Origin: Amyelois transitella
Lineage: Eukaryota > Arthropoda > Insecta > Lepidoptera > Pyralidae
NCBI RefSeq assembly: GCF_032362555.1
Contig: NC_083505.1
Coordinates: 2,037,501-2,101,500, forward strand
DNA: 64,000 nt
Direction: 5' to 3'
Shown: positions 1,593 through 38,800 of the stretch, piece by piece
Numbering within the stretch: position 1 is the first letter of the stretch
How the letters are laid out: every line of letters begins with the position of its first letter
Notes under the pieces: model-generated
What the model saw: the letters and a program-made list of their open reading frames with translations, nothing else
What the model was told of the DNA's origin: nothing
Databases searched by the model: none
Translations under genes and position numbers: made by a program

Positions 1593-4500
1593 CATTCCGT
1601 ATCTGCGCGCATACACTAGTAGCTATTAACGTGATCTGCTCCGACCGTCTCACTCCAGAAGACTGCTCCAGACTGCACAGGGTGACAGAACTATCTAGAA
1701 CGTTGAACATCCAGGTTGCCGCAATGGGAGAGTTTTGGTCGTGGGACAATATAGAATGTGAGTAAATGCATTTTAACACCAGACGGAGAGAGAGGGGTGA
1801 TTATAAGTTTGACGTGTCCGTCTGTTTGTCTGTGTCATTATAGGTCGCAAACGGATGAAGCGATTTCAACTTATTTTTTTTTTATTAAAGGTGATTTACT
1901 TGCGAGTGTTCTTAGATGGTTGAAAGGAAATGATGAATAATTGTGAAGATGCTTTGGTAATGTCACACGTGTTACGTCATATATTTTTTTTTATAAATTG
2001 AATTTACACATGAAAATGAATATTAAATCAAGACATAGTGACGCCACCTGCGCGTTATCACAAAAATCGTAATTAATTATGTCTTATCAGTGAACAGATG
2101 TTACTGTTGAAGATGTCATGTGAAAGTTTATGTAAATAAGTATAAAACGAATTGTGGACTTCGTCATATCTGCGTACGGATTTCGTAGGAGGCGACTAAT
2201 GGAAGAAAACACAATTGCGTCCACACACACTTGTTTAATGTTTAGATTGTTGTCAAGCTAACATAGTTTTAAAGAAAGCGATTTTTTTTTTCAAATTACT
2301 TTTGTTAATATCTCGAGTTGTGAGTGACATCACGTACACCAGTACTTTAGTGACATTTGTATACTATATAACTTTAAAACTGTGAAAACGGCATCAAATT
2401 CTGTTATTTTTTTTTTAGCTGATTGATAGATAGATAGTTAGATAGATAATTCATTTATTTGATTTGCTACACACAATTTACAATTTTATATGGAATACAA
2501 ATTAATTAGGGTGTGAGTTGCAACAATACAAAAAGGTCACAACTCAACGAATTTATTGCTATAGAGCAATACGCTGATTTTCAGTTATGACCTAGGTACC
2601 TACTAGTGCAGGTCAATCTGCGCACGTAATAAAAAAAAAACATAAAGAAACAAACAAACAAACAAAGACTCGTGTCGTGACTTAAAGTTTTATTGTATAT
2701 GTGTGATATATTGTATAAACATATTATATAAACAAAAATAATAAATTTGGTCGTTTTGACTTTGTGTTATTTGTTTGTAATATCTTTATTGCATAGAAAT
2801 TTACACAGGAACAAGTATAAAAGAAACGAATATGATGAATGAAGGGATCCCTTCCAGTCAACCGGCAAACAATAAAGGAACTAGATAATTAAGTAAAAAG
2901 CGGCAAGTCACTGTGTTTTTAGCAACAATATAAAAATATACTAACAGATATACAAACAATAGACATATACCTACCCATAATACGAGTATACATGTATAAT
3001 TTGTGTTATTTTTAGGTTCACCAATCGTCTCAAAGTACAGAGTTGCAATTTTAGAATTATCTTAGATTACACGCAATTATTTTATGCGTTATTCAATGCA
3101 ATGCAATCGTATGGAGGCATCCTTTGTTTTGTTTATGTATGAATCAACCAGCGTGTTACGGGATTGTCCTATAGGAAGACCGCTGACCTGTCACATCATT
3201 GCACACGGCACCGATGCAATGAATTGCGCAAGTGAAGTAAAGTGCCGACGCAGCAGCACGTGCAAGCCTCGACGCCCGCCCGGAGACCGGACGCCTCGGC
3301 CACTTGGGCTTCACACTTCGACCCATGCACTTACTTGTAATTAGTCGTAATTATAACTTGTAATTTCATTCTTTTAATAAATTAGTATTTTAAATTTTGG
3401 TTTTTTTTGAGACCTCCGACTCGCTGGACCATAATTGGCGCAGTCTTGGTAGTAGGCTCGAGCTAGGCGTGCGCGATCGCGATCAAGATTTCCGCTGGAA
3501 TTCAGCCCGAGTCCCGCGTGACTAGCTGGTTCTCGAACCTTCGTCGAGCTGACCTACTCATCTCTACTCGTCGAGCTGAGGGCGGAGGAGATATCCGATC
3601 TTCGATATCACTCAAGAAGGACCAGGTATCGAGACATGATACTGTAAGTACGCTACAATTTATTCGTGGTGTTGCTTTCCCTATTTCCTAATTTCCTAGT
3701 GTAGTAAACTTCCAAAATTTTTCACCCTCGTAAATTACCTCATAGCTCTGCATCCAGGCAGGCTAGAGACACTTTTATTGATAGTAATAGAGATTTAGAT
3801 TCATTAGATTTAGATAGTAATAGCGTAGAAATGGCTCAGCAGCAAATACCATTAGGACAGCCGTCCACTGGGCATGTTGAACCTGACACTATAATTAAGG
3901 CCCTTCGATTGGCGCCTGACTTTGATGGCAATCCTCATACACTGCCTCGCTTTATACAATTATGCGATCAGATTGTAGGAGCCTATTGGACGGAGGATAA
4001 CCACCTCACCAATCTGTTCTTGATTAACGGCATACTAAACAAGATAAAGGGCAATGCCGCATTGACTATAAATGCGAATGGTATTCCATCCGATTGGTTA
4101 GGTATCAGAAACCATCTTATTAATAATTTCAGTGACCAAAGAGATGAGACCACTTTGTATAACGATCTAGCTATGCAAGTTCAAGGTAATAGCTCTCCTC
4201 AAGAGTTCTACGATAGGTGTCAGACATTGTTTAGCACTATAATGACGTTTGTAACCTTACACGAAAGCATCCCCACGACCGTAACTGCTAAGAGAGACCT
4301 GTATAAAAAATTGACAATGCAGGCTTTTGTTCGCGGACTCAAAGAACCTTTGGGATCTCGTATAAGGTGCATGCGTCCAGAGAGCATGGAGAAAGCATTG
4401 GAGTTTGTTCAGGAGGAGTTAAATACTATGTATTTACAGCAACGTAATGAAGGACTCCCTAAAAACTTACAAGGGTCATCCGCCTCTAAACCTGTACAGA

Positions 4501-7500
4501 CACCAACGCCATCGCCACAAACTCAACTACCTCAAATACCTAAACCTTTCACCTTTGGTCCTATGACACAATTTCCACCTCGTCAGAATTTTAATAATTA
4601 TCAACCTAAACCTAATGCACAATTCCAACTCAATCAAACTACACCTCGCATGCCTACACGCACCCAACAGATGTTCGCAGCACCACCTCGAAATTATAAT
4701 GCCAATAGTAATATGTTCAGATTACCAAATCGAAATTTTAATAATAATGCCGGTCCTCGCCCTATGAGCGGCGTTAATCATTTTACACCAAGAGTTTTAC
4801 CACCTAGTGGCCATGACTGGACCAAACATGGCAATCCGCCTCCCACAAATTATTTCAAATCTCGAGATGTGAATCTGAACGAGTGTTATGCTTATGATTC
4901 TGATTATAATTACTACCCCGTGTATTACGAACCAGACTATAGTGACTATAATAACTATAACTACGTTGAACCTATTGACTACGACAGGACTAACTATAAT
5001 GTTTTTGACGAAAACCTGTATACTGGACAAGGACCGAGTATATCGGAAGTGACTTATAATGGACAGACAGATAACCTTCCCCAGCCATCGTCTAGCCAAG
5101 CTGAGGATTTTCAGATAGCCAGCCTTACAAAAAAGTTAAAATAGAAGTTAATCTGCAAACACAACGACAGTTACCCTCATGTGCAATTGAATTATGACCC
5201 CTTTCAAATAACTAATATACACAGTACTTCTAAAAGTGATCATTCTATAACTTTACCGTGTTTCCAAGAATTCAAGTGTGATAATGACATTACATTATTC
5301 CTTTATGACTTTCACGAGTTCTTTGATGGATTAATAGGGTTAGATTTGCTCACCCAATGGGAAGCCAAACTTGATCTTAAAGACTTAATAATAGTAACTA
5401 GCAACGCGTCCAACCCTATCAAAATGTATAACTCGCGCAACGTTAACCTCTACGAGGATATCATACCAGCTAAATCTTCTAAGTTACTTAGACTTCCTAT
5501 CAATGTAGGGGACGGTGATGCTTATATACCGGAACAAGTATTGTGTAACTGCCTAATTCATGAATGTATAACCTCAGTTAAGAACAATCGCGGTGTGATA
5601 GAAATTGAAAACCCATCCGATCACGATGTTATATTATCTTTGGATAGACCCGCGAATGCCGAACTGTTCAATGTCGATAGTGCTAGCATAGATCAGCAGC
5701 CCATGTCTAAGCGAACCCAAGAGGTTCTGTCGCGTCTACGTACAGACCACCTCAACGCAGAAGAGAAAGCCAACCTACTACAGCTTTGCTCACAATACTC
5801 AGATATATTTTATATTGATGGTGAAGCCTTGACATTCACCAACCAAGTTAAACATTCTATTAAAACCACGGATGAGGTACCGATCTACACTAAAAGCCAC
5901 AGGTATCCCTTTATACACAGACAAGAAGTCCGTGATCAAATTCAAAAAATGTTAGATCAGGGAATAATAAGGCCCTCGGAGTCTGCATGGAGCTCCCCCA
6001 TCTGGGTAGTTCCCAAGAAATTAGATGCATCCGGCAAACAAAAATGGCGTTTAGTTGTCGATTTTCGTAAACTAAACGAAAAGACTATTGACGACAAGTA
6101 CCCTATACCGAACATCAATGACGTACTTGACAAGCTAGGAAAGTGTCAATACTTCACTACACTTGATTTGGCGTCCGGATTTTATCAATGCGAAATGAAT
6201 CCACAAGATATACCTAAAACAGCCTTCAATGTAGAGCACGGGCACTTTGAATTCCTTCGGATGCCGATGGGATTAAAAAATGCGCCATCAACCTTTCAAA
6301 GAGTGATGGACAATGTCCTTAGAGGCCTTCAAAATGAAATATGCCTGGTATACTTGGACGACATAATAGTCTTTAGTACTTCTCTCCAAGAGCACATCCT
6401 TAACCTTGAAAAGGTTTTTCAGAGACTCAGGGAATCTAACTTCAAAGTACAAATGGACAAGTCAGAGTTCCTCAAGCTTGAGACTGCCTATTTAGGTCAC
6501 GTCATAACTCGTGACGGTATCAAGCCAAATCCCGATAAAATATCCGCAATAGTTAAATATCCAATCCCCAAAACCAGTAAGGAAATCAAACAATTTTTAG
6601 GCCTCCTCGGTTACTACCGAAAATTCATACCAGATTTTGCCCGTATAACCAAGCCAATGACCCACTGTCTTAAGAAAGGTCAGAGAATATCAATTGATAA
6701 TCCGGCTTACGTTAAGTGTTTTGAGACATGTAAAAGCTTACTGACAAATGACCCCATACTTAAATACCCTGACTTTGAAAAAGAATTCATACTGACTACA
6801 GACGCAAGTAACTTCGCAATCGGAGCCATATTTTCTCAAGGGCCCATAGGTTCCGACAAACCTATATCCTACGCGTCTCGTACTCTTAATACCAGTGAGA
6901 CCAACTATAGCACAATAGAGAAAGAGCTATTAGCCATAGTTTGGGCCACCAAGTATTTCAGGCCATACTTGTTTGGTAGAAAATTTAAGGTGTTAACAGA
7001 TCATAAACCACTCCAGTGGCTAATGAGTCTGCGTGAACCCAATTCTCGGCTTACAAGATGGAAACTGAAATTAAGCGAGTACGATTTCAGTGTCATATAC
7101 AAAAAAGGCAAAAGCAATACGAACGCCGACGCACTGTCTAGGGTAGAAATTCACAATGAAGAATTAGACCAATTGTTAGACGACCTACAGTCCATAATAG
7201 GTAATCCATCAGAAAAACCACAGACATTACAGGGTTCCACAACAGCCACGGTACATACCAGTGAGGAGAACCCGATATTAGAAGTCCCCATTACCGATGA
7301 ACCCCTTAATAAATTTCACCGACAGCTCGTCATAACTATCGTAGGTGACGTAAAAAAGCGACCTGTCGTAACTAAACCATTTGATACACATACCCGAGTT
7401 TCAGTACAGATTTCGGAATCAAATTTAGAACAAGAAGTTATTAATACAGTCAAAGAATATGTAAATCCTAAAGTTAAGACTGGTATGTTGTTAAACCCCC

Positions 7501-10500
7501 CACTTGCGATGTATTCAATCATACCTATCATTCAAAATAATTTCAAAAATTCAGCTATGAACCTTGTACTTTGTAAAAGTGAAATAGAGAATGTCAAACA
7601 GTACTTGAGGCAACAAGAAATAATCAGCAACTATCACAATGGCAAAACTAACCATCGTGGTATAAATGAATGTTTCTTGTCCCTTTCTCATCGCTACTTT
7701 TGGCCCAAGATGAAAGAACACATCGCAAAATTTATAGGAGAATGTACCATATGCGGGCAGGCTAAATATGACAGAAACCCCGTTAAGCCACAATTTAATC
7801 TTGTCCCACCTGTGTCTAAGCCCTTCGAAGTAGTCCATATGGATCTTTTCACTGCCCAAAACGAGAAATATCTAACTTTCATTGACGTTTTCTCGAAATA
7901 TGCACAGGCATACATCCTTAGGGATGGTACAGCACTCAGCATCCTACAAGGGCTCCTAACATTCTGTACCCATCATGGACTTCCCTTAACAATAGTCACC
8001 GACCAGGGACCAGAGTTTAATAACCAAATGTTTTCAGAGTTCGTAAGATTACATAAAATAACACACCACAAGACCTTGGCCCATACACCTAGTGATAATG
8101 GCAACATAGAACGATTCCATTCTACCCTTCTTGAACATCTCCGTATTCTTAGTATCCAACAAAAAACAGAGCCCATTGTTAATCTAATGCCTTATGCTCT
8201 CATAGCTTACAATAGTTCCGTACATAGTTTTACTAAGTGTAGACCATATGATCTAATAAATGGCCACTTTAACCCCCGAGATCCCATAGACATAGATGTT
8301 ACTGGACACTTAATGCAACAGTACCTACAAACACACAAAGACCGAATGAAGACAGTGTACGAACTAATACATGACTCTACCACCGTTGAACGTGAGGCTA
8401 TTATAGAGAACCGAAATAAAAATCGCGAGCCGGAAATAGAATACCAACCCCAACAACAAGTTTTTATAACCAACCCTTCAGCCAGTAGGCAAAAGATAGC
8501 CCCAAGATATACCCAAGATACTGTATTGGCGGATTTGCCGATCCATATCTATACTTCTAAAAAGCGCGGCCCAATTGCAAAAGTTAGACTGAAAAGAATC
8601 CCCAAGTCAGCAAAATTGTTGCAGGTTACTCCTAACTCTGACCGTGACACGAGCGCAAGAAGTTCAAGTTGACAGCCTGGAAGACGGACCTGGACTTTTG
8701 CCCTTCAAATTGGGACCTACTAGACTAGTAACACATGACCACTCCTTCCTACAATACATTGAGCTTAGTAGCATTGAGAAACATATTGAACTTGTTAAAC
8801 ACCAAATCGTAGAACTAAAAGTTAGATTACCTAATGATACTTATCAAATATTTGAACACCAGGTAGATTACTTAAGTAACAAATTAAATAAAACAACATA
8901 CGAACTGGACAGTCTAGAACCCCATCGTTTACGAAGAGGTCTCGTAGATGGTCTAGGGTCTATGATAAAAAGTATAACAGGAAATTTAGATTATACAGAC
9001 GCTATAAACTATAATAAGGCCATTGAATCTCTTGAAACCAATCAAAAGAAATTAGCTAGTAACTATAATACCCACGTTAGCTTAAATAAGGAGTGGATGG
9101 CTCATCATGCGAGTGTATTAGTTAGTCTAGTAGAAAATCAAAAGAAACTTAACCATACATTGAATATTCTTCTAGACGACGAGATCCATAAGAATAGCAA
9201 TCTGATAAAATACGCTAAGTTAGCTCAGTTCTTATCGATCGTCACCAATAATATAGATGAACTCTCAAACGAATTACGCAGAATAGAAGATATATTGGCG
9301 TTCACTCGTACATCAAGTGTCCATCACTCGATGTTAAGAGTCGACATTTTAAGTAAGATTATTAGAAAACTTAAGGAATTATATAATAACGAACAATTAT
9401 TAGATATAGATTTAAGAGACTATTATAATATCATACAGGCAGGTTCATATTATATGAATAGACAAATAGTTATAGTTTTCAAGTTTCCAATACTTTCAAC
9501 AGAAACCTATGATCTTTATAAATTACCTATAGTACCCAACCAATATAACCAAATCCTAATACCCCCTCATCCTTTACTAGCAACCAACGGTAAAGAGTAC
9601 ATGTACATAGAGGCAGAATGCCCGAAGATACAATCTCGATACCTATGTCAACCAACAACTTACCAGCAAATTAGATCGGATTCTGACTGTATCCAGACAC
9701 TCATCTTCAGACAGGCCATCGACGACTCCTGCCAGCAGATCACCGTCAATCTTACAAGAGAGACGCTAGAAAAGTTGGATGACAGACATTACATCCTAAC
9801 TCTTCCACGGCCAACCAAAGTACGATTTACATGTGAGCGAGATGAATACCGAATTCTGCATCGTAGCCATCTCATTACTATTCCACGTCGGTGTTCAGTT
9901 CAAACAGATGACTTCACCATCTACAACTCTCAAGATCGCGTCGAAGGACAACCCGTCAAGATATTCAACATCCCCGATAACCCGGACCTACACATCTCAT
10001 CGCAGCCAGCGATAACTCTTAATTCTATCGACCTGAAGATGCTTCGGAACATTCAAGATAGAGTTTTATCCCAGAAACCCATGGAAATGGACGAAGTGAA
10101 TACAGCATCCCTATACCACACTACAGTACCATTATATGTATTGCTGAGCATCACTGCAGTCGCAGCTACGGTTATATTAAGCCGCAAATATATGAACCGA
10201 AGACAGAATCCTGGAACCACAGACGATATCCCGAAGACTGAAGAAACTTCCAGATCCACAACTATATACAGCATCCCAAGCCCTGCAAACAGAATATCGA
10301 ACGCAACATTTTCGTTAAAGAACCTAAAATAGTTGCGTTTCTAAGGGTGGAGGTGTTACGGGATTGTCCTATAGGAAGACCGCTGACCTGTCACATCATT
10401 GCACACGGCACCGATGCAATGAATTGCGCAAGTGAAGTAAAGTGCCGACGCAGCAGCACGTGCAAGCCTCGACGCCCGCCCGGAGACCGGACGCCTCGGC

Positions 10501-13500
10501 CACTTGGGCTTCACACTTCGACCCATGCACTTACTTGTAATTAGTCGTAATTATAACTTGTAATTTCATTCTTTTAATAAATTAGTATTTTAAATTTTGG
10601 TTTTTTTTGAGACCTCCGACTCGCTGGACCATAATTAGCGTACAGTCAAAAGGTCGTCTGATAGTTCACGCGTAACCAGTAAATCTTATTAGCTTAAACA
10701 CCGAGACTCGAGGCAAACAACTGTTACTCTTTGTATTATGATAAACAGTGTATTTTTAGAGACGCGTTTTATCAGTTTTCCTTATACGATCATAGGGGTT
10801 AGTGCGAGTTTCACACGATTCAGCGAGTAATCACGAATTTGTATGGAATTTGCATTAGTTCCATCGCGTTACCACTAGATGGCGCTTATCGAATCACATA
10901 CAAATTAGCGTTTACTCGCTCGACGCGTTTTATAGAGTAAAACTCGCACTTAGCCCTCAGTAGCTACGTCTAAAGTGACTTACAGTCTATGTGTCACAGT
11001 CAATGTAATAATGTTCTTTAATTTTATGAAAATCGTTATTAATTAAACAAATGGTAGTCTTTAAATATTACAAAGAAAATAGGCAGTTGTATGTATTATT
11101 GTGCTTAGTTTACACGTTAAACTAAGTCTAAGCGTTAAACAGTCTAAAAACTACATATATATCGCTGTTGCGCTTTTTAGTATGACGTGAAACGGTGACA
11201 GCGATAGTTTTATCGCGCGATAAAAACGGAATTTGATTTTGCAAGACAGCGTAGATTTCAAACTTCATTTTGAATTAAAAATAAATTTAAACTCGAAACT
11301 ATCTCTCGTCTCGCCGAGTCGCTGTAATTTTGAAAATGGCACCCCAGGTCTTCATTTGTTATTCAGCTATTGTTGCCGTTTCAGTGAAGTAGGGCACAGT
11401 GTTTTTGTTAGTTTTTTTGTTCATTGTACAGTTTACTTGCTACCCTGGATATGTATCCGACTCTTTTAAAAGCGCATCTTCATATTGATTAACATACATA
11501 CACATATGGTCACGTCTATATCCCTTGCGGGGTAGACAGAGCCAACAGTCATGAAAAGACTGAATGGCCACGTTCAGCTATTTGGCTTAATGATAGAATT
11601 CAGATTCAAATAGTGACAGGTTGCTAACCCATCGCCCAAAAAAGGAATACCAAGTTTGTAAGCCTATCCCTTAGTCGCTTTTACGACATCCATGGGAAAG
11701 AGATGGAATGGTCATATTCTTTTTTGTATTCTTGCCGGGAACCACACGGATCATATGGATTAATAAGTAGGAAAATCAACAATTAATCACATACTGAGTC
11801 CGTAATCTGCTAATATTTTTAAGAGAGTAAGTTTGTATATAGTTTTTGTTACGCACTTATGGACTGTTTTTGAAGAAATTTACATAGACAGACAGACAGG
11901 GATAGATTAGCCCAAGGCAACTTTTATTTGAGAAAATTTTTAGTTATGTGCACATTTAATTGCCTGAATGTGCTACGATTTTTCCCCTACCTAAAATCAG
12001 GCATTTTCATAAATTCATAAAAATAATACATACATAGGTACATAAAATCACGCCTCTTTCCCGGAAGTGTAGGCAGAGACTACCTCTTTCCACTTGCCAC
12101 GATCTCTACATACTTCCTTCGCTTCATCCACATTCATAACTCTTTTCATGCAAGCTCGACGGTTTCGGGTACTCTTAACCTGACCCTTTGCCAGGATGTC
12201 CTTAATTTGATCAAGATAATTTCGTCTAGGCCTTCCCAAATAAAAATAATGTAAGCAAAGAATTACTCAGTGTGTTTACCTAGACAGCGTTACGAATGCA
12301 AACATGTCAGTCTAGACATTTCTTTCAACCTATCACTCGTAACACTTTAGCTAAGCAATGTAAATAATATGATAACATACACTGTGACGGGTGTTTTCGG
12401 CGTTTGTAATGTCTTCATAAAGTTCCAGGCTCGATCAAAATTAGAAAAAAAATATGTCCCCGGGCGCTAAAAAGGGGAAGCTCTTTCACCAGGTACCGCA
12501 ATGTACCAGGGCGCTTCACGCCGACACGTTAGGCCCTTAAGGCAAGATAGGTTAGCCAAGTTAGAACCCCTAAGGTTATGAGCGTTGCACCCGCTCGCGA
12601 GTTTGCATTGTTGTTGTTTCGTGCAAGGCAAAGTCAAAGGCCGAGTTTGGCCCACCCTTGCGCGCTTTTGCCGAAAAGGCTGCTGGAGGAGAGTCAAGCC
12701 CCCGCCTAAAATAGTCCCGGTGTAATAATGAATGCCCTTCAGGCAAATTATGTTCTATGAGAACTCTCTCAAGAACATATTTAGTCATGACGCAATCTTT
12801 GACGTGGGTGCGAACGCTATAGTTTCCTAATTCGTGTAAGATATCGGGATATGAATGCAATTTTCCGGGTGTATGTAGTGTGGTTATTCTATAAAATGTC
12901 TATTGTTCTAAACGTATTTTGTTATCGTTTAGGTACCTTGCAAATGCGATAATGGCTCAATCGACAAAAGATATATTTTTTTAAATATTTTATGCAACTT
13001 TGTTGTAATCTCTGATATCTGATATATGTGGCTATACCGGACGTGATTTTAATGACATTTTTATATTCGGGGCAAATTACACAGATTAAGTTAGCCTCGA
13101 AGTAAGTTCGAAATTTATGTTACGATTACGAGATACCAACTCAACGATACTATGTTTTTTTAACTTAATAACCGAGTGGCTTAAGGCATTTTAGAATAGC
13201 ACCACTCCATCTCCTTCCCATAGATATCGTAAAAGACCACTGAGGGATAGGCTAAAGGAATAATAACTATAGATATATTAATAAGGTAAAACTGAACTAT
13301 GGTAACTATTTAAAGAGGCTGTTAAATTATAACTGTACCATTTTTAACACGTATATAACATGTAACATCTTTTTTTTTGCAGCGTTGAATTCGTGCGAAT
13401 CACTGGTAGACGAGGACGTTGTCACGACCATAAACTCAAAACACACTGGCAGGAGCTCCATTCTGTGCCCTGGGACCATAGACAAGAGCAACTTCAATGG

Positions 13501-14896: not shown

Positions 14897-15469
14897 ATAT
14901 CGTCGGTGATACTGCAATACCGCGTAAGCAACAATTGCTAATACCGCGTAACTAGTGGGTGATAAACTTTACAGGAGAGCAAAAAAACTGAATATATTCT
15001 AAATTATGACAGCTTTGGCTGACTGAACTTTATACGAACTGTAAATATATGTACTCTAGCTATTAGTAAAGTCCATTGGTAAAAAAACTCCATAGATGAT
15101 ATAAAAATACCACTTTCGCGGTATTGAATCATCAAAAATTAACACTTATTTAGCCTTTTCATTATTTACGCGTAATTGTAAGAGGGATGAAATAAAACAT
15201 TGTGTATTCAATATTATTATTATTTTATGTTATACAACACCTTATCAGTCTTTTTTTTTAAATTAAGTCTTTGCAAGTACTATATTATTAATTTAAGACA
15301 TGGAAGTAGTTGAACAGCTACCTACTAATGCGAATATCAACATCTAACACATACAAATAAACATTTAGAAACAAAAACCGTACTAAGTACTTAAAATTCT
15401 TCCAAAACAAAAACAAAATTCTAACAGAACTTACAACATAATTTATGTAATACTAGTAGTAGTAACAAG

Positions 15470-16342
15470 GTAATGCGACCTAAACATTTTGATGAGCAAT
15501 CCCACGTTTTGCAATTTCTTTATCTTTACTCTTTTCAGCTCGAGGCTAATTTTTCAATTCGATGTGACGCTGATAATCCTTTTCAGAAACATTACCTACT
15601 GCATAAGAACAACAATAGTCACAGGCATCTTTTTTTGGCTGAAAAAGACCTACGTTTTCCTCATTTAATATGTCAAAAAATAATTTCTCGAAGCCTATAC
15701 TGGCTTGCATTCTGACGACGAATATTCGACGTACTTATATATTGTATAATTGTGATTTTGATTGTATTATCGGTTCAACATACTGCTTTGTGGTTGATTG
15801 GGGACAATAATGTAAGGGCAACTTGGGCAATAAAGATAAGTAGCATTCAACAGTCTCGTTTAAATCTGTGCAAAATCGGAGTAAGGTTCGGATTTACTGA
15901 ATTCACAAGTGTTCTATTAGCCAAGCTAGTAGCGGATAGTCCACTCTTTTATGCTTAATGTCGCCAGAAATGTCTTCAAACAAAATCTTTCTTTTTTACC
16001 GTCTATTTGTAAGTCTAGAATAACCTTCAGTTGTCTTCCTTTTAACATGTTCCGTATCAATCATTGACCGTACATACATCTTTTTCTCAGTCCATGTCAT
16101 GCTCCAAAAACGATTCAAAATGTCTTTTCTAATGTCCTCAGGCAGATTTTAACAAAATTTAACAAGAAAGATTTTATTTACTTCGACCACAAAATGCTAA
16201 CATACAGTTAGGGGCCCATAGATCTTTCCGGTTTCGGTTGTTTTTGATGGTACTTATTGTCTCCTTTTTTATACCCAAGATAAGCTTTTCCTGACATTCT
16301 GTCCTTCTTATTTAGTTGTCTTCTCCAGGTTTCACAGTCAGC

Positions 16343-16374
<32 letters not shown>

Positions 16375-17067
16375 CGTTTTCTTTTTCTTGAGTCTCTTGC
16401 AGCTTCTGGCTTCAAATTTCTTTCAGGAAAACTTTCAGAATCATAAGGTTCTATAGGCTCTATGTTGGTAATATCAGATAAAGATACGCAGTCAGGATCG
16501 GCGGTAGAGTCATTGGGAGTAGGATGTATGAGATTTTTTTGGGAAACATGCGGGACATCAGTGGACGAAGTGTTAGGATTATCCAGACAAAATTGTACAA
16601 CCGTTTTTTCTGCTATGTTTGGGGTGACAGTACATAAACAGTTGGGATCAATTTGAGTAAATTCAGTAACCATTTCTTCTACGACTACCGGTACTTGAAG
16701 TACTCGGATAGTCTGAAGTCATTTCTAAAATTGTTATTTCTTTAACATCTGAGACAGCAGTGGAAAAAGTGGGATCATCACGGGAAAAATCACCGTGGAA
16801 GTACTGGGAGTTTGGAGTAAAAGTTACAAGTGTTTGATCAATAATATCTGGGATATCAGTAAATGAAGTCTGGCTGGGACAAATGGGGAAAATTGTTGTT
16901 AAAGTATCGCTATTAGCTATTTCATAACCAATATCTGTTATGTTCATCGGTGAGTCATTAATTTTTTGAGGTATGTTCATAATGGATTGTTTTTGTGAAA
17001 GTTTTTTATCTGAAATATTCTGCCTTTTCTGAAGAAGTTCCTGTCGTTGTCTTTGAAGATCTGTCAT
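15470..17067 (-). pseudogene. Decayed DUF7869-family transposon protein (N-terminal two-thirds)
   Basis: Reading downward from ATG at 17067, the first frame runs to 16663 (starts MTDLQRQRQELLQKRQ). A frameshift leads into a second frame ending near 16344, where a tetranucleotide repeat interrupts. Further shifted blocks read KDRMSGKAYLGYKKGDNKYH, RKDILNRFWSMTWTEKKMYV, RFCLKTFLATLSIKEWTIRY, LPKLPLHYC...YVEPIIQSK and GLFQPKKDACDYC. Their order and spacing match, from memory, large insect proteins annotated with DUF7869. In-frame stops and frameshifts are several. The DUF7869 domain itself should follow and is absent. The function is presumed to be transposition. Confidence 0.65.
16346..16376. 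repeat. (CATA)n microsatellite inside the transposon gene
   Basis: About seven tandem CATA units. They fall between a basic run (RKRKR) and the continuation ADCETWRRQL of the decayed protein. Confidence 0.8.
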
Positions 17068-17697
17068 ATTGGATTTTATTTTATTTTCTTAAAACTTCAA
17101 TGACTGTTCATTGTTTATCTCTTTCATAATTATTTTATTAGTTACCTGAAATATAATATAAAGAAAATTTAATTCATAATCGCATAATCCACTAAGCTAT
17201 TCCAACAACATTAGAGTGTAAATACCGCGTAAGTACACGAACCATGATGTAAAGAGAATGTTAAAATACCGCGTAACTACAATAGAAAAGTTATTTACCT
17301 TTTTAGTATTAATTATGCTAATTTAAAATAAATAAATTATTGAACATAGTGCCAAATGTAATAATATATAAAAATAAAACATATACTTACCGTTCAATTG
17401 AATAAACTCTGCTTAAATCACTAATATTACGGAGACACTTACCAAACCACCAAACGCTCATAGTAATTCTGTGTAGATTCGCGGTTTTGAAGCAAAATTC
17501 GACAGTTCGCTATTCGCGCGGTTTTGAAAAGCTTGATTTGAACCGTTTTGATTGGATAAAGCGCTCGTGTGATCGCACAGGACGATGCCAATCGCTATCA
17601 AGAACATGTAGGCGCGAAATCTCAATTTTGATTTTTTCGTACTTCCGCGGTTTTTGCAACAGTTGGTTACGCGGTATTGCAGTATCACCGACGATAT

Positions 17698-35800: not shown

Positions 35801-38800
35801 AAAAACAGTAAGAAATATTAAACTCACTCTTTCAAAGGGATCCGTTGAGCCAACAGCACCGCCGTCACAGCATTGGAGTGATGCCTGGTCAACGACGTCA
35901 ACGGCTTCATCAGCCTCATCCTAGCCTCCACATCAACCGCGTCCATCGTGCTCAACATCACCTCAACTATCCGCTCTATACTCTGGTACAAATCCTGGCC
36001 CTTCTTCGTGATAAACGCATCCAAAACTGAACTAATTCCAACACTCCTCAACTCGTGATCGTCATAGCCTTCTAACAAACTCTCGATAAACTGCATTGTG
36101 TGCTGGTGAGGTATCTTAACAGTAATCGTATCACATAGAGCCATACAATAGTCACTAATCATGTTCACGTCATTAGTTAATATATTATTCTGCAGATTTG
36201 CCAAGTTGCCCATACATTCGTCGTCCGGTTCCACTGTGTGACCTTCGTAAAGATCTTGTATTTGAATTATCAATTTTATGCAATCAACCGTCGTTAATCT
36301 CACTGGGAAATTCGTGTCTGCCACACCAGGAACCACTAACCCTAGTAGGTAACCCATCTGACCAAATTTGCTTGGAGTCTCGTAATTCAATTTCACGTTT
36401 TTAATGTAAGTATCGAATACTACTTGGAGAATCAGCACGGACGCCGTTCGAATTTCATCGTTTTCGTTTCTCAGCCATTCGGTTAAAAGGCCGATTAAAT
36501 CATCGATTGTGCTCAAACATGTCGATTGGATTATCAACTCCCGTATCAACTGGTGAAGTAAAGTCAAACTGTCGTTCAAAGTCTTAGCTAGCAAGTCATT
36601 CTTATCACCGTTGCCTTCGATTTCATATTTCCTCTTGAAGGATGACAATTCTCCAAAAATACTATTGAACAGTACGCGCAATATTGTGTTTCTCTCCTCT
36701 GGCAGTATTCCTTTCTGCAGCTTCGTCAATGCTTTTGAAGCCTTCACAATCATAGGGAACAATTCAACGTTGCGCTTATCCAAATTGGAGTTGTAGATTT
36801 GTTCCAAAACAGCGTTCAAAAGTTGCCAACGATTCCTCAAGGCAACATTATGATGCGCCGCCGGTTGTAAAGCCTTGCTAATTTGGTACAGAGTAGTAAC
36901 ACTAGCTTTGCACAAGTCGAATTGTGGTGCGGTCTTCAAGATCTCATACAAAATCGTGGTAACGTTATCGCCTAATCTTGCTAAAACATGCACGTCTAGA
37001 CACTCCGTTGCCACTCTGCCGTAGCACGTTATCAACGTATACTTCACGATATTCAATTCTAATTCATTTTTAGCATTTCTCGATGATAAGAAATTAAGAA
37101 TTTTGTTGCCTCTTCTACCTTCGTTTTCTTTGTAAATAGCATCTAATTCGTTCAAAATGAATTCTCCGTGTTGTCTAGCTGCGATTCCTACAGCGTTGCT
37201 CACATACTCGCAGCCCTCCATAGGTATTGACTTCAGAGCTAATAGGATAATCTTTAGGACGTTCTCGACTACCGCTGCATTGGCTATGTGGCATGACAAC
37301 ACCGCTAAGTACTGCAGTGACACTCCTTTCACCATTGGCGGTTGCTTTTTGGCCACAACCTGCTGTGTTATCAGCATCGCTATGGTTTCCACCCATTTGC
37401 TATTGTTCACTTGCTCTACTGCCGAAACCAGCAAGTCCAACAACATGTTATGCCACTGTTCTCTCGGTTCCGCTTTATCGACAAACTTCAACAACCTCTG
37501 AATTTCCACTGTCCATGAATTCTTGAGATTCCTATGTATATCACCTGAATATTCTTCCAGAAACATTAATAGATTCTTATTTTTCTCCGTCGCGTCTGGT
37601 TCTACTACATGCGTTATGCATCTTATGAAAACTAGATCTGGATTGCATTTGAATTCGTCTATATTTTTTGTCGTATCTTCAGTGGCATCAGAATTGTTTT
37701 GTAACAACGATGTAAGGCAGTGGCTCACGGTAGACATCGAAGCAGTGAAATCATCCACAGTTAGAGCCGTCAGTAATAAGTTCCTCAGTTGCGTACGCAC
37801 GCTAGTTACAGTATTGCACATTAATATTAAAGAACTCTTGCAAGTGTCATGTAAATCAGTTAAATCATGTTTGGTCACATTTGAATTAGCTTCATAACTG
37901 CAATGTTTTACAATAAACTCGATCATAGCGAAATCTTCCGTCGACACTATGCAATTTCTGTAAACTAAACCGACAATAGCTTTTACTAACAATTTCTTCA
38001 TTTTTAATCCCTGTTCCATATTTGTCATAACTTTTAGTAAAGCTATGAATTTCTTCGCATAATTTTCGACGAAAACTTGTGACGAAGTGGTCAGATGGGT
38101 TAGAATTATCACCGCTTTCATTCTGTCCTTTTCTTGGTTGTTTTTGCATTGGTGAAGTAAACTTTCTATAGTCTGTTCTGGAAACTGTCCGGCCATATGA
38201 TCGAAGCATCGTAACACTTCGAAATGATTTTTAACTGTGTGGGGCTGATCATAATCCGGCTCAAGAAGGACCAAGTTGAAAAGAACATGATTTATAGAGT
38301 TTATTACGTTTTCGTTCAATGTCAGTTTGGGGTTTAGGGGCGATGGCGAGAGTAAATACGATATACATTGACTGATGCAGTAGAAATTAATTATTGGTTT
38401 TCTGTACAATGAGAGTAATGACAGTACAAATTTATTGACTGTTTCATTGAATTGTCGTTCTGGTATGAGCCTGGTGATGGGGCCTAGGGCTTCGAGGACT
38501 GATTCGGAGACTTTGTGTTCGTGTGAAGGCAGCCATTGGTTGTACAGCACGTCAAAGATGATTGAAAACTCCGTGACAAAATTGTCCTTTATGGCTGTTA
38601 TGTTGTCGTTCTCGACGTTGTCGCCTATTTGCTCCGACACGGCAATGGCGAAGTGGCCGAACGCTGATGACAAGAATATTTAATATTATTTCTTACAAGA
38701 CTATTTCTATTAGCTTAACACTTTGATAACAAATTGATTTAATTTTTTATTAAACGGAATGTATTGCAACTTTAGCATCCATTCAGAGTTAGAGCGTCAG

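Follow-up and report, generated by a model that had tools for sequence, protein, structure and literature searches.

A truncated transposon in the moth Amyelois transitella points to DUF7869 as a probable transposase domain

We analyzed a 64-kb stretch of the Amyelois transitella genome (contig NC_083505.1, positions 2,037,501 to 2,101,500; hereafter the window) and found in it a 2793-bp element that is, with high likelihood, a non-autonomous deletion derivative of a cut-and-paste DNA transposon with a DUF7869 transposase. One part of this reading comes from sequence: terminal inverted repeats (TIRs) that start with CG, an exact 4-bp duplication, four dispersed copies with one break, and intact relatives with alike ends all suggest it. 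The other part comes from prediction, in which DUF7869 appears as a catalytic core of the RNase H-like type and its D-D-D triad is conserved. Taken alone, the window element is ordinary; the useful gain is a function for DUF7869. The Pfam entry for this domain of insect proteins (PF25273) states none. A sequence-only reading of the same stretch had proposed a transposon bounded by inverted repeats and carrying a decayed DUF7869-type gene.

Borders of the element and subterminal motifs

A repeat search demonstrated an inverted repeat of 31 bp without mismatch at 14897-14927 / 17667-17697 (all coordinates are positions in the window), which continues imperfectly (58 nt, 88%). Shuffled windows gave a mean of 0.00 matches to it with up to three mismatches allowed. 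The sequence-only reading had taken all 31 bp as the transposon end. The repeat is indeed real and perfect, but it is best read as a 27-bp TIR followed by the palindromic target duplication ATAT. The ends of relatives decided this point, and the 31-bp TIR was dropped: the outer ATAT would belong to the target rather than to the element because relatives carry other 4-bp duplications outside CG-starting TIRs, and because an empty site of the relative L026 contains a single ATAT. The short motif AATACCGCGTAA is found six times in the window (at most one mismatch) against 0.28 expected, and all six matches are located within the element, close to its two ends. The features are as follows.

14901..17693, minus strand: whole element, 2793 bp, non-autonomous, with the gene remnant on the minus strand (inverted repeat and end comparison)
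14897..14900, no strand: left target-site duplication ATAT (ATAT outside CGTCGG in all four copies; L026 empty site)
14901..14927, plus strand: left TIR, 27 bp, perfect, starts CGTCGG (repeat search)
14916..14927, plus strand: subterminal motif AATACCGCGTAA, overlapping the TIR (motif count, as for the five below)
14940..14951, plus strand: subterminal motif AATACCGCGTAA
15114..15125, minus strand: subterminal motif AATACCGCGTAA with one mismatch
17221..17232, plus strand: subterminal motif AATACCGCGTAA
17265..17276, plus strand: subterminal motif AATACCGCGTAA
17667..17678, minus strand: subterminal motif AATACCGCGTAA, overlapping the TIR
15490..15492, minus strand: break point, where protein similarity ends after ...GIAH (tblastn; sequence around the break nearly identical in four copies)
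about 15492..17127, minus strand: remains of the decayed coding sequence, aligned to residues 1-504 of P0001, a relative of 785 aa (tblastn, reading frames, stops)
17667..17693, minus strand: right TIR, 27 bp, perfect (repeat search)
17694..17697, no strand: right target-site duplication ATAT (end comparison of copies)

The deleted part of the gene corresponds to DUF7869

The reading frames confirmed a decayed minus-strand gene with four motif blocks in the order previously described. This coding remnant is interrupted by frameshifts and stops. Reading through them, we matched 18 proteins, the best being P0001 with 66% identity across the whole core. Precomputed annotation places PF25273 in 10 of the 18, and in the seven that we scanned DUF7869 is always downstream of the blocks, twice above and five times below the Pfam cut-off, in agreement with the claimed match to an uncharacterised insect protein family. 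In P0001, the DUF7869 match scores 23 bits (cut-off 26) and spans residues 532-645, within the part missing from the window copy. The break in the window copy falls a few residues ahead of the first catalytic aspartate (D509 of P0001); the remaining gene is gone, including the entire D-D-D triad region (tblastn against P0001), as expected from the proposed loss of the catalytic C terminus. A search of the blocks against DUF7869 profiles had also been proposed. They do lead to DUF7869 proteins, but none of the seven window pieces matches the profile itself at the cut-off of 26 bits, because DUF7869 is the deleted part.

To follow the family further, we built profile 1 from 13 relatives and profile 2 from the most divergent local lineage. 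Profile 1 matched 846 proteins, with DUF7869 in all 120 listed (the best 120 of 846), and profile 2 matched 229, with DUF7869 in 115 of the 120 listed (the best 120 of 229). The profile 1 matches that carry a species name among those listed are all from insects (moths and butterflies, beetles, true bugs and a fly). In both listings most proteins are nameless, and among the names listed none contains "transposase". One DUF7869 protein, P0173 of Maniola hyperantus, carries the source name ankyrin repeat domain-containing protein 12-like and is probably a misnamed gene model. A scan of viral contigs confirmed no relative among 20 pattern matches, and an NCBIfam scan of four proteins gave a single weak, unrelated match. 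The name DUF7869 was absent from the literature searched, a result that does not extend to other literature or to other names for the domain.

Four copies share one internal break

We searched the whole assembly (33 contigs, 327 Mb; the window lies on C1). When up to three mismatches are allowed, the TIR pattern occurs at 11 places. Eight of these are exact and make up four full pairs on C1 (window), C13, C16 and C24. Pulling copies by the 31-bp ends, a check proposed by the sequence-only reading, thus recovers four ATAT-flanked elements on four contigs. They measure 2764-2793 bp (2764-2781 bp for the three besides the window copy), lie in both orientations and have unrelated flanks right up to ATAT, which stands outside CGTCGG at either end in every copy. 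Their pairwise divergence is 2.8-4.0% (Kimura two-parameter distance, K2P, 0.028-0.041), and a one-ended copy on C32 is at K2P 0.089-0.102 from the four. By tblastn, similarity to P0001 ends at residue 504 in all four copies. The simplest reading would be a single deletion that predates their spread. Since the break is common to the four, the element appears to be a non-autonomous deletion derivative, and the copies were presumably moved in trans by a transposase from elsewhere. An intact copy had been sought as well: intact relatives are present in the same genome, but among the matches listed in the protein search of the assembly there is none of the window subfamily.

Relatives in the same genome carry similar ends and appear to have moved recently

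A protein search of the moth's own genome gave at least 64 matches. The analysis of ends covered 35 distinct copies, of which 29 correspond to loci L009-L038 (L017 and L027 being one copy) and six are L039-L043 and L048. A TIR pair delimits 27 of the 35, across several divergent families, which ties DUF7869 proteins to defined transposon ends as had been suggested. Each of the 27 starts with CG at both TIR ends and has four identical flanking bases. These duplications are ATAT in 19 copies, AAAT in two, and AAGT, CAAA, ACAA, ACAT, ATTT and AATT in one each. Beyond them, the fifth base is equal in only 3 of 27 and the following four bases in none, and we therefore set the duplication at four bases. 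As the first choice of ends was ranked by equal flanks and required a CG start, the search was redone under neither condition; for each of the 27 copies the best 25-base inverted repeat was again the one chosen at first. The sequence-only reading had named intact members with different or absent repeats as evidence against its proposal. The families all start their TIRs with CG and have a 4-bp duplication, but the TIR sequences differ between them, and eight copies showed no pair in the sequence examined.

Intact elements are 3.7-4.2 kb long and mostly filled by one long open reading frame (ORF), of 727-1072 aa in the delimited families. All 10 intact ORFs scanned contain DUF7869, eight of them above the cut-off.

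Joining the L026 flanks by one ATAT, we found 41 scored repeat places in the genome that match over the full 224 bases, with 100% identity in 26 of them and 99% in the other 15. In the 10 such places that were fetched, the junction was always uninterrupted and the TIR absent. The single ATAT of this empty site shows that ATAT was duplicated when L026 inserted, and it establishes the borders of L026. L031 (on C14) and L032 (on C31) are identical across 3946 bp and have different duplications (AATT and ATAT); L025 and L026 are one base and one gap apart, and L014 and L015 two bases. Judged from this near-identity, these three pairs moved recently. The window subfamily is older and decayed by comparison.

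Two further observations concern these copies. Of the 27 delimited copies, 17 have C and 6 have T just before the left duplication, and 12 have A and 8 have G just after the right one; this bias argues for a target preference beyond four bases, Y-ATAT-R. L011, L021 and L036 are related short elements that have the subterminal motif CCGCGTAA in common, and L021 and L036 are reduced in the opposite way from the window copy, keeping the C-terminal part of the gene in place of the N-terminal one.

Predicted fold of the catalytic core

An RNase H-like DDE/D transposase core is predicted for P0001, the closest intact protein, in line with the DDE fold anticipated by the sequence-only reading. The model matches solved transposases, the nearest being the Mos1 catalytic domain (4mdb and others; 10% identity). 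All 64 aligned rows contain the D-D-D triad. Together, the predicted fold and the conserved triad suggest that DUF7869 is very probably the catalytic domain of a transposase. A sequence profile search of solved structures returned two weak matches, the ribosomal proteins mL68 and mL77 (E 0.0044 and 0.072), at profile positions 47-139, which are non-catalytic, and we deemed these matches due to chance.

Comparison with known transposon groups

The element works like a DDE/D cut-and-paste transposon. TIRs delimit it (27 bp and perfect in the window, and a pair in 27 of 35 copies), and the duplication has a fixed length, as all 27 delimited copies have equal 4-bp flanks and L026 has an empty site. 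An RNase H-like fold with three acids is predicted for P0001, with the triad in 64 of 64 rows, in the region that is gone from the window copy. Ginger transposons also make a 4-bp duplication and have an integrase core of the rve type. They may differ, as may retroviral integrases: the rve profile, which can miss distant members, found no match in 10 intact DUF7869 ORFs at E <= 0.01. According to PMC5199201, Tc1/mariner elements duplicate a 2-bp TA and piggyBac elements TTAA. The duplications here are 4 bp long, some of them without TA (e.g., CAAA and AAGT), and TTAA occurs in none of the 27. The DUF7869 protein is also much larger than that of Tc1/mariner elements such as Mos1, to whose catalytic domain P0001 is 10% identical.

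Among known superfamilies Sola2 fits best on the features compared. We consider it somewhat probable that the DUF7869 transposons, the window element included, are Sola2 and that DUF7869 is the Pfam name of the Sola2 catalytic core. The likeness lies in an AT-rich 4-bp duplication, one large transposase gene and TIRs, compared by published description; in that description, Sola2 of two amoebozoans has AT-rich duplications AWWT (ATAT, AAAT, ATTT) and an 888-aa transposase (PMC3627910). AWWT fits 23 of the 27 duplications here as well as the ATAT of the window copy, and the intact ORFs of 727-1072 aa bracket these 888 aa. AAGT, CAAA, ACAA and ACAT, that is 4 of 27, fall outside AWWT, and no relative is named Sola or transposase among the protein names listed. 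This identity is compatible with a cut-and-paste transposon with a DUF7869 transposase; it bears on novelty and not on mechanism. We regard as tentative, and rather unlikely, that DUF7869 transposons are a superfamily apart from Sola, defined by TIRs that start with CG, a duplication of 4 bp with Y-ATAT-R as the favoured target, and a D-D-(40-42)-D triad. If true, transposons found across insects would still be catalogued as uncharacterised host genes.

Points against a transposase role and other explanations

Several results weigh against the reading of DUF7869 as a transposase domain and of the element as its cut-and-paste derivative. The fold comparison gave a single Foldseek match at E <= 0.001, and the full-length superposition was poor (root-mean-square deviation 19.4). 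Three of 13 scanned proteins with a full or nearly full catalytic part (P0001, L012 and L014) score slightly under the DUF7869 cut-off. The empty site comes from the relative L026 and not from the window copy, and a helper for the window subfamily was not found among the assembly matches listed. Excision and integration activity of the family is indirectly suggested, by the identical L031 and L032 with their different duplications. Finally, 8 of the 35 copies showed no TIR pair in the sequence examined (L010, L018, L020, L028, L035, L037, L038 and L043). Some of these are truncated. L020 has only one end, L018 and L035 align to intact copies along only a portion of their sequence, and L038, whose left end lies outside the sequence examined, is identical (100%) to L048 along 4056 bp. 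L037 is an intact 782-aa DUF7869 ORF and L010 a nearly full-length gene, both with no TIRs in the stretch examined. They may be stranded or co-opted, or their ends may lie outside the stretch.

DUF7869 proteins might instead be host genes, or passengers of transposons moved by another enzyme. The copies that lack a TIR pair, with L010 and L037 possibly stranded or co-opted, would fit this, as would the database labels (uncharacterised, or DUF7869 domain-containing). We find it quite improbable given that one long ORF dominates the intact 3.7-4.2 kb elements and is predicted to have a transposase-type fold with a conserved triad. Even less probable is that the palindromic ATAT is part of a 31-bp TIR and that the window subfamily makes no duplication or a shorter one. 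All four copies have ATAT, so their own ends cannot separate TIR from target, but 8 of the 27 delimited relatives are flanked, outside the CG start, by equal 4-bp sequences other than ATAT, and the L026 empty site has one ATAT. Segmental duplication in place of transposition, to which the same internal break in four copies might point, deserves next to no credence and is refuted by the four contigs, both orientations and flanks that differ up to ATAT, barring a misjoined assembly at every one of the four sites.

Proposed mechanism and significance

For a cut-and-paste derivative, we propose that the transposase of a related intact element would bind the TIRs and the subterminal AATACCGCGTAA motifs, excise the element and reinsert it at AT-rich 4-bp sites. 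The derivative, having lost its own catalytic domain, would have spread in trans and then decayed. A domain of unknown function (846 proteins in one profile search) would thereby gain a specific, testable role as a transposase catalytic core with three named acids, and insect gene sets could treat DUF7869 "host genes" as transposons. Identical copies at different sites of one moth genome suggest recent movement, which makes a test of excision and integration practical.

Other features of the window

The window also contains a long terminal repeat (LTR) retrotransposon at 3153-10640, with 288-bp direct repeats that are 100% identical (3153-3440 and 10353-10640). Of its three long open frames, the middle one contains domains of reverse transcriptase, RNase H and integrase, and the third, which has no Pfam match, is positioned like an envelope-like gene. 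On the minus strand, a 951-codon open frame with Maestro/MROH-type HEAT repeats (35824-38679) is probably an ordinary host gene.
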